Source of the DNA: Nitrospirota bacterium
Lineage (GTDB): Bacteria > Nitrospinota > Nitrospinia > Nitrospinales > VA-1
Assembly (NCBI GenBank): GCA_003235465.1
Contig: QJWD01000188.1
Location: forward strand, 1 to 9,452
Direction: 5' to 3'
DNA: 9,452 nucleotides
A program made the translations under genes and the position numbers. The notes under the pieces are model-generated. The model worked only from the letters and a program-made list of their open reading frames with translations. It was not told where the DNA came from and made no database searches. Each line of letters begins with the position of its first letter. Positions within the stretch are counted from its first letter, which is position 1. This document shows positions 7,701 to 8,922 of the stretch, one piece after another.

Positions 7701-8922
7701 GCTGGTTGCACTCGTGCACCACTTCGCCGGTCTCCGGGTCCACCAGTTCGTCGAACAGGTAGCGGCCGATGAGGCTCTCGGCGTCGATCTCGACTTTTTG
7801 CGCGCGGGCCATGCGCTGGATCTTCTTCGCCGCCACCGGCGTCACCTTCTTGCCGGCTTTCAGCACCACGTCGTCGCTCTTGCCGTCGACCAGGTCTTCC
7901 AGCACCTTGAAGCCGACGAGCAGGCTCTTCGAGGCCATGTGGTAGCGCGCTTCCTTGGGCGAGCACATGACCTTTTCGACGGGGTAGAACGTCTCGAGGA
8001 TCGACGGCACGCTCATGCCAAAGGCCTGCAAGAGGACCGTCGCCGGCAGTTTCCGCCTGCGGTCGATCTTGACGTAGAGGATGTCCTTGATATCAAATTC
8101 GAAATCCACCCACGAGCCGCGGTCGGGGATGATGCGGGCGGAATAGAGGATCTTGCCGCTGATGTGGGACTTGCCCTTGTCGTGCGAGAAAAACGCGCCC
8201 GGCGAGCGATGCATCTGGCTGACGATCACCCGCTCGACCCCGTTGATCATGAAGGTGCCGGTGTTCGTCATCATGGGCATCTCACCAAGGAAAATCTTCT
8301 GCTCCTTGACCTCGCGCACGGAATTGATGACGATCTGGGAAACCTTCTCCGCCTTCAGTTTTTCCAGGATGTCGTCGGTGATCTCGGTGCGGGAGGGGAT
8401 CAGGGTCTTGCCCGTCTCCGGATGCTTGACCTCCTCGACGATGTACTTGCCCGGCAAGTCTTTCATCGTCTTGGCGTTGAAGTCGATGGTCTCCTTATCG
8501 AAAAGCACCAGGCGCACCATGATTTTGATGGGGTCGGCATACACCAGCCCCTTCTGGCGGCACTCGCTCAGCTTGTGCTTTTCGTTGTAGGCGACTTCCT
8601 GACCGCACTCTTCGCAGACCACACCGGGCCCGCCAAGCTCGCGGTACTCGCCGCAGCCGCAATCCCAGACCCCCACCTCGTACCCGACGTACTCGATCCG
8701 GGCGTTGATGTTGAGGTCTGAAACCGGAAACACGTCACGAAACACTTCTTCCAGTCCCTTGACCTGGCGGTTTTTGGGCGCCAGGGTCCACTGGATGAAG
8801 GCCTCGAAAGACTTTTTCTGGATTTCGATTAAATTCGGTATTTCACTGACTGTCGGGATTCTTGAAAAGTTGAGTCGTTCCCTAAGATTTCCGCTCGCTC
8901 TCTGGGGAAGGATTTTCGACAT
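4702..8922 (-). CDS. rpoB: DNA-directed RNA polymerase subunit beta, with an unusual N-terminal zinc-ribbon insertion
   Basis: beta forms the other half of the RNA polymerase active centre and the rifampicin pocket. From the ATG at 8922 the protein has 1406 residues. Landmarks: N terminus [19 protein letters not shown]; a C-x-C-x12-C-x2-C zinc ribbon (Cys88, 90, 103, 106) and an extra PETG module (157-201) in the lobe; [21 protein letters not shown] (222-242); an SI1-like insert about 336-440; the rifampicin region 597-630 with wild-type Asp608, His618 and Ser623, so sensitivity is predicted; [10 protein letters not shown] (911-920) with Glu913 and Asp914; a charged SI2-like segment about 1045-1150; active-centre Lys1181 and Lys1189 in [12 protein letters not shown]; the C-terminal clamp segment [20 protein letters not shown] (1308-1327). 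The E. coli segment of about 55-60 residues before ATPVFDGA is absent. A TTG at 8940 would add six residues, but it has no Shine-Dalgarno and abuts a stem-loop; the ATG has TTAGG 6 nt upstream, itself weak. Cotranscription with rplL and rpoC is expected. Confidence 0.99.
8320..8454 (-). repeat. Extra PETG-type module in RpoB, paralogous to a segment of its own SI1-like insert
   Basis: Residues 158-199 of beta (GKY, PETG, IT, L and V landmarks) align without gaps to residues 386-427 (GRY, PETG, IT, L, V), 12 of 42 identical, with identical spacing between landmarks. The second copy lies at 7770-7642. A third, weaker relative is residues 338-379. E. coli beta, as I recall it, has two such elements in SI1 but only a short linker where this first copy sits. 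Seen: the spacing and identities. Inferred: an internal duplication into the lobe. Confidence 0.6.
8605..8661 (-). other. Codons for the RpoB zinc-ribbon motif (Cys88-Cys106)
   Basis: This stretch encodes Cys-Gly-Cys, twelve residues, then Cys-Glu-Glu-Cys. Residues 86-110 of beta align gaplessly to residues 67-91 of beta' from the same window, with 14 of 25 identical, including all four cysteines and the GVVCE segment. The beta' site is the established N-terminal zinc ribbon, so zinc binding by beta here is a strong inference. E. coli beta has no cysteines of this pattern at the equivalent position. Confidence 0.75.

Follow-up and report, generated by a model that had tools for sequence, protein, structure and literature searches.

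The stretch of DNA analyzed here (the window) is 9,452 nucleotides long and holds rpoB and rpoC as neighboring genes, both on the minus strand, with the following features (positions are those of the window):

3–350, frame resembling the start of an rpsL gene (putative name, given by eye)
536–4621, minus strand, rpoC, RNA polymerase β′ subunit, 1361 aa (TIGR02386, 1827 bits)
4349–4423, minus strand, zinc-binding ribbon of β′, RpoC residues 67–91, with C69, C71, C84 and C87 (core 4361–4417)
4702–8940, minus strand, rpoB, RNA polymerase β subunit (TIGR02013, 1778.7 bits; cut-off 801.15)
8326–8484, minus strand, second β1 insert, RpoB residues about 153–205, BEAN/BBM2-like and separate from the ribbon
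8593–8667, minus strand, 25-residue stretch of RpoB (residues 92–116) matching RpoC 67–91 without a gap at 14 of 25 positions
8605–8661, minus strand, core of the RpoB ribbon, C94-x-C96-x12-C109-x2-C112, a predicted Zn site
9007–9390, rplL-like frame flanking rpoB and rpoC (putative name, given by eye)

Residues of RpoB are numbered in the 1412-aa frame that starts at the TTG at 8940; the in-frame ATG at 8922 gives 1406 aa. A preliminary description of this DNA placed the ribbon at RpoB residues 86–110, which is right when counted from that ATG, and at positions 8598–8667, which fall 5 bases short of the full stretch (8593–8667). The ribbon stretch excepted, RpoB is an ordinary bacterial β subunit by its TIGR02013 score, and the alignments listed to three solved β chains stop at residues 89–90 and restart at 121–124.

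When the whole of RpoB was compared with the whole of RpoC, the ribbon pair was the best of all ungapped pairs of 25-residue segments, reproducing the 14 of 25 matches described earlier; the other 11 pairs listed, with 13 to 11 matches, all lie on that diagonal, shifted along it. With the four cysteines held fixed, 9 of the 20 remaining positions match; shuffles of the RpoB residues give a mean of 2.1, and 9 was equaled in 2 of 200,000 of them. The RpoC-like spacing C-x-C-x12-C-x2-C in RpoB is likewise real, with C94, C96, C109 and C112 standing against C69, C71, C84 and C87 of RpoC, and this ligand spacing of the β′ ribbon, found in the RpoB of the window, is exact in 68 of 73 close homologues. 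The N-terminal flanks of the RpoC ribbon (IFGP before it, GHI-x-LA-x-PV after it) are absent around the RpoB ribbon, the flanks of which are those of RpoB β1.

In E. coli RpoB numbering, the ribbon site lies between YRLG (73–76) and VQEC (82–85), in β1, and E. coli RpoB has no such stretch, in agreement with the earlier statement that its β subunit lacks these cysteines. The location first proposed, in the β lobe near downstream DNA, has to be given up, as the ribbon sits in β1 (the protrusion) and not in the β2 lobe. In a profile search of the PDB, which matched 130 sequences, β′ or γ chains match the ribbon (positions 50–80, E 1e-4 to 1e-3), and among the matches listed (60 of 130) no β chain has a best stretch that covers the ribbon columns 50–79, one starting at 78, while five β alignments skip these columns.

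The second insert in β1 is a matter of its own. In a local BLASTP comparison within a four-protein set, it is 33% identical over 33 residues (E 6.8e-4) to part of the protein's own BEAN/BBM2 region, RpoB 391–423, and it directly precedes the VREVKEQ stretch (E. coli 114–120), a position that we take to be near the RID site. It is absent in the deep Nitrospinota sequences L018 and L020. CarD-like short frames were seen in two genomes, G005 (183 aa) and G209 (171 aa); the first of these (L018) is without the insert, and G004 (L015) has it, so that gaining the insert might conceivably be linked to losing CarD. RpoB residues 350–433 (window 7642–7893) score against the RpoC model TIGR02386 (positions 765–848, E 1.5e-7), as would fit the known sharing of BEAN/BBM modules by β and β′. 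We considered whether the ribbon could itself be a BEAN module and ruled this out, the ribbon being about 25 residues long with four cysteines and the BEAN-like stretch lying separately at 153–205.

A search with RpoB residues 80–135 matched 73 proteins, and all of those named by organism are labeled Nitrospinota or a subgroup; the five without the exact spacing are P0068, with one residue more, and P0070–P0073, with lost cysteines. Among 77 Nitrospinota genomes, rpoB was matched in 67; 13 genomes are without a usable N-terminus (10 without an rpoB match, and G040, G065 and G073 with the later part only), and the count leaves out two unread loci, G020 and G047, among the other 64. The insert is present in 62 of the 62 genomes read, as a CxC ribbon (CxC-x12-CxxC) in 52 and without the full set of cysteines in 10. 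With the deep Nitrospinota RpoB L018 as the query, 2138 proteins were matched, and among the best 120, from which the phyla were judged, three Tectomicrobia-labeled RpoBs (P0168, P0169 and P0174) all carry the CxC form. A genome scan brought up an Aquificota MAG with a CxxC...CxxC ribbon at the same place in RpoB. The RpoB profile matched 120 of 136 Aquificota genomes, and in the 50 that were read, mostly the best profile matches among the 136, the ribbon is present without exception, in the CxxC form in 45 and in the CxC form in 5. There is no ribbon in E. coli RpoB or in L032, a foreign RpoB in a Nitrospinota MAG. The ribbon is a lineage-specific insert of the bacterial β subunit, found in Nitrospinota and Aquificota and absent from E. 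coli.

Several records call for comment in their own right. L032 is a second, ribbon-less RpoB in a 5.3-Mb Nitrospinota MAG (G015), lying on contig C14, which also holds an L36 gene, with the Nitrospinota RpoB of the same MAG on C42; contamination is the probable explanation. L004 and L005 come from records titled Nitrospirae and Verrucomicrobiota and have a Nitrospinota-type RpoB, so that these are probably misnamed MAGs. In the 2.5-Mb chromosome CP070799.1 (G002; L002/L025 and L095), the rpoB frame near 0.71 Mb stops after 747 aa, a match to the extreme end of rpoB falls near 2.37 Mb together with the rpoC frame, and the middle of rpoB is unmatched, probably through misassembly or a break in the record.

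Trees of RpoB were built with the insert cut out. Those of 77 and 84 rows are quick searches with long branches; L013 and L014, which lack a full frame, are missing from the 77-row tree, as are seven Aquificota rows that the 84-row tree includes, and G028 (L013/L087) is outside both. The CxxC ribbons form one clade in each tree, comprising 10 of 77 rows and 16 of 84 rows (one change, support 100). In the 84-row tree, the sister of this clade is a CxC group (L145–L148 and L162), the adjacent P0202 and P0203 are CxC as well, and the other large ribbon group is CxC throughout apart from losses. With CxxC confined to a single clade and both its neighbors and the other large group CxC, CxC is the simpler ancestral state. 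Profiles of the CxC and CxxC segments of RpoB align over 87 columns (hhalign, 99.9%), as corresponding segments of orthologous proteins should. E. coli and L032, the two rows without a ribbon, are placed between the two ribbon groups, an arrangement that one ancient gain followed by losses, two gains, or transfer of rpoB would all fit.

The cysteine set is missing in 16 rows, of which ten have lost all four (as ETSQGEYKDLGGVGVIDEETGEEV), five have kept the third only (as ENGEGEYDGLGGIGVVCEKTGQEV) and one, P0071, has lost two, and the length of the loop is unchanged in 15 of them, P0208 being one residue longer. At least 7 changes are required for these losses in the 77- and 84-row trees, forced by well-supported branches, and a careful tree limited to 34 of those 77 rows likewise needs 7 (bootstrap range 7–7); a single clade of the nine Nitrospinota rows without the cysteines is rejected (p-AU 1.4e-82). 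In P0070/P0072/P0073, L042/L047, P0208 and G028, D-x-x-[TS]-G is found where the second knuckle, C-x-x-C-G, would be, and may form a metal-free turn that replaces it. The full ribbon is present in all 65 RpoC frames read, including five (L015, L016, L042, L047 and L058) whose genomes encode a Cys-less RpoB, the RpoC frames having been picked by the active-site motif or by a pattern with the first two cysteines, a choice by which frames without both would be missed. The ligands of L31 are kept in 22 of 22 copies read (10 of 10 in genomes with a Cys-less RpoB) and those of L36 in 23 of 23 (9 of 9). As RpoC, L31 and L36 thus keep their ligands, the loss is particular to RpoB. When Cys-less rows were paired with Cys-bearing relatives, 13 to 19 of the 24 loop positions outside the cysteines were identical in ten pairs, and in the P0208 pair the shift by one residue lowers this to 5 of 24; whole-protein identity is 0.71–0.85; loop identity is therefore at or below that of the protein, which points to a somewhat relaxed loop, kept no better than the rest. 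A key role for the metal itself, as first envisaged, is weakened by these losses.

Kinship with the RpoC ribbon was assessed with nine CxC fragments (five from Nitrospinota, one from Aquificota, one Tectomicrobia-labeled and two others) against 18,950 NCBIfam models. All nine rank β′/γ families first, with best RpoC/γ E values of 4e-5 to 4e-4 for the five Nitrospinota fragments and of 9.9e-7 to 3.2e-3 for the other four, the lowest belonging to one of the five Aquificota CxC ribbons; these are partial matches, with scores far below the cut-offs of the families. A Cys-less RpoB fragment had no NCBIfam match, and in Pfam RpoC was listed for none of six ribbon fragments. In hhalign comparisons, the CxC form of RpoB reaches 97% against the RpoC ribbon and the CxxC form 33%, and the value for the second zinc site of RpoC (13 rows) is under 1%; the CxC alignment ends at the ribbon, after 30–31 columns, and its 97% probability rests on 25 residues, too few for a tree. 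A profile of the RpoB N-terminus (six rows, five of them Nitrospinota) matched, in six of six Nitrospinota genomes, exactly one further frame beyond rpoB (487–1385 aa; profile positions 50–79, E 7.3e-7 to 9.9e-6), and the RpoC ribbon was read in the loci of these six genomes. The same profile gave a second match in 21 of 136 Aquificota genomes, mostly to an RpoC-sized frame (E 4e-5 to 8e-4), and in the Aquificota genome G007 it matched RpoB alone.

That CxC ribbons rank β′/γ first among so many models makes descent from the RpoC ribbon the best reading. The preliminary description had offered transfer from RpoC or strong convergence, and of this the link to RpoC is supported (nine of nine in NCBIfam, 97% in hhalign), whereas a local or recent transfer is not. 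The element is common to Nitrospinota, Tectomicrobia-labeled MAGs and Aquificota, and the RpoB ribbons of Nitrospinota stand no nearer to the RpoC of their own genome than to that of others. The most serious alternative is convergence, in which an unrelated C4 ribbon was inserted in β1 and a knuckle geometry favoring CxCG, an aromatic residue and G-V-x-C made its CxC form β′-like. The motif is short (25 residues), the L31 of these genomes also has a CxCG knuckle, and the same site in β1 holds CxxC ribbons in 45 of the 50 Aquificota genomes read. One Aquificota CxxC fragment, L125, ranks archaeal RpoP/Rpb12 first in NCBIfam (E 4.9e-7) and thus matches RpoP as well as the best CxC ribbon matches RpoC (9.9e-7), so that a ribbon at this site can come close to a different family; for another, L021, generic ribbons are listed. 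On the other hand, 8 to 11 of 20 non-cysteine positions match the RpoC of the same genome in eight of nine rows tested, where shuffled sequences give 2 to 3, and the NCBIfam results for the nine CxC fragments, all with RpoC/γ first, do not include L31. Among deep-branching Nitrospinota, the matches to their own RpoC are 11 (L018), 10 (L039), 8 (L038) and 5 (L041), the last barely above shuffles, 769 of 20,000 of which reach that level. We consider convergence unlikely, if worth keeping in view, and on these comparisons descent from the RpoC ribbon would rank above it, though not far above. As an observation on the Aquificota ribbons themselves, the β1 CxxC ribbons of L125, L149 and their relatives are of the type DWECGKC...CPHCGS.LI.

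An AlphaFold2 model of 624 aa, made from 18 sequences and containing no metal, gives the ribbon a pLDDT of 86–90, with short strands at both knuckles, in a model that overall reaches a mean pLDDT of only 67.4 and a pTM of 0.48; a fold search with an 84-aa model returned no significant match. Four cysteines at the spacing of a ribbon, mostly vanishing together, point to one structural metal, and the RpoB ribbon is predicted to be a single structural site, most likely for Zn. A metal that can be dispensed with, in a loop of nearly invariant length, favors a rigid hairpin with a working surface.

What such a surface might contact is less clear-cut. β1 is described as the binding site of the RID proteins CarD and Mfd (PMC4593161, PMC7864632), with Mfd docking on the protrusion (PMC7864632), and two genomes, G005 and G209, each have two CarD_TRCF_RID matches, one long and one of 171–183 aa, all of which would suit an accessory docking site for these proteins. 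However, G007, with a CxxC ribbon, shows no RID match, and G001, G003, G004, G013 and G016 have a long match only (748–1164 aa), with CxC and Cys-less ribbons both included. With no RID match in G007 and CarD-sized matches only in G005 and G209 of eight genomes, CarD and Mfd are unlikely to be the sole partner, and we judge RID docking as the role of the ribbon to be improbable. A redox or zinc sensor that tunes transcription is more doubtful again: four cysteines on the exterior of RNA polymerase would in principle suit such a role, but the cysteine set has been lost at least 7 times in close relatives, and L31 and L36 give no sign of zinc saving.

The age of the likeness between the two ribbons can be gauged within and between genomes. 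In 37 Nitrospinota genomes, the RpoB ribbon matches the RpoC of its own genome at 9.08 of 20 positions and that of other genomes at 8.94, and the CxC ribbons of five Aquificota genomes score 9.2 to the RpoC of their own group and 10.2 to that of Nitrospinota. Since RpoB ribbons are not especially similar to the RpoC encoded in their own genome, the resemblance is old, and this speaks against a recent conversion. A process of gene conversion, recent or still going on, that keeps the rpoB and rpoC ribbons alike within each genome could be suggested by the adjacency of the two genes and by the 44 of 75 bases that match between the codons of the ribbon pair in the window, but is scarcely credible, being largely refuted by the own-genome comparison and opposed both by Aquificota CxC ribbons that are nearer to Nitrospinota RpoC than to that of their own group and by Cys-less RpoBs left unrepaired despite an intact RpoC.

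With some reserve, we lean towards an old, RpoC-derived ribbon in β1 in which the surface of the hairpin, rather than the metal, does the work. The ribbon would then be an old copy, about 25 residues long, of the zinc ribbon of β′, set into the first hairpin turn of β1 at the position of E. coli 76–82. It would most likely have come from rpoC, which follows in the operon, at a time before the sampled lineages diverged. The least certain step is the last, in which the hairpin surface would be at work through contact with upstream DNA or with a protrusion-bound factor. A fuller history is plausible and is put forward more tentatively: the rpoC ribbon may have moved into β1 before Nitrospinota, Tectomicrobia-like lineages and Aquificota split, with a change to CxxC in one clade and the cysteines stripped at least seven times, in several cases with D-x-x-[TS]-G taking the place of the second knuckle.

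If such a transplant took place, it gave RNA polymerase a mirror ZBD close to the bubble's upstream edge. The core of RNA polymerase is treated as nearly frozen. The passage of a metal site from one of its two largest subunits to the other, followed by repeated switching off in close relatives, would, if true, amount to natural experiments on a zinc ribbon of the protrusion, with CxC, CxxC and Cys-less RpoBs as matched enzymes for comparison. As the protrusion is described as docking CarD and Mfd (PMC4593161, PMC7864632), the ribbon would bear on promoter melting and on transcription-coupled repair. The lineages concerned include marine nitrite oxidizers and thermophiles.

Among the literature matches listed, no title or opening of an abstract mentions a zinc ribbon in β, and a prior description is possible. 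Lane and Darst (2010) and Iyer (2004) may have described such inserts. What the sources cited here already describe, each separately, are inserts in β and modules shared by β and β′ (PMC11515920, PMC2939025), as well as zinc proteins that also occur in a zinc-free form (S4; PMC3087516).

The nearest known system is the ZBD of β′ itself, with which the RpoB ribbon has in common the CxC-x12-CxxC spacing, CG[KE][YF], G-V-[VI]-C and, two positions ahead of the first cysteine, an aromatic residue. In E. coli, the ZBD of β′ is described at the opening of the RNA exit channel, where it binds putRNA (PMC9378689), whereas the RpoB ribbon lies in β1, is absent from E. coli RpoB, is repeatedly found without its cysteines and has no known ligand. 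BEAN/BBM2 and HABAS are described as lineage-specific insert domains of β and β′, BEAN occurring in both subunits (PMC11515920, PMC2939025), and the ribbon resembles BEAN/BBM2 as a module present in both large subunits and inserted by lineage. The two differ in kind, the RpoB ribbon being a C4 element of about 25 residues and BEAN being CATH 3.90.105.10, with 85–99 residues in the β examples of Table 1 of PMC11515920. The survey in that paper omitted inserts under 50 residues and places five β sites in uD2 to uD5 and none in uD1; its main text uses neither the word zinc nor the word ribbon. With archaeal RpoP/Rpb12 the likeness is that of the one Aquificota CxxC ribbon that ranks RpoP first (E 4.9e-7). 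RpoP is, however, a separate subunit, and the CxC ribbon of the window does not list it; the CxC fragment L019 lists it weakly (E 0.015), behind four RpoC/γ models. Finally, the RpoB ribbon is like the C+/C− ribosomal ribbons, where, as described for S4 (PMC3087516), bacteria differ in having the zinc or the zinc-free form of a protein. In the S4 case, as that source gives it, the zinc-free gene was transferred and there are genomes with both forms (PMC3087516), whereas here it is rpoB, a single-copy gene, in which the cysteines vary, those of RpoC, L31 and L36 being retained.
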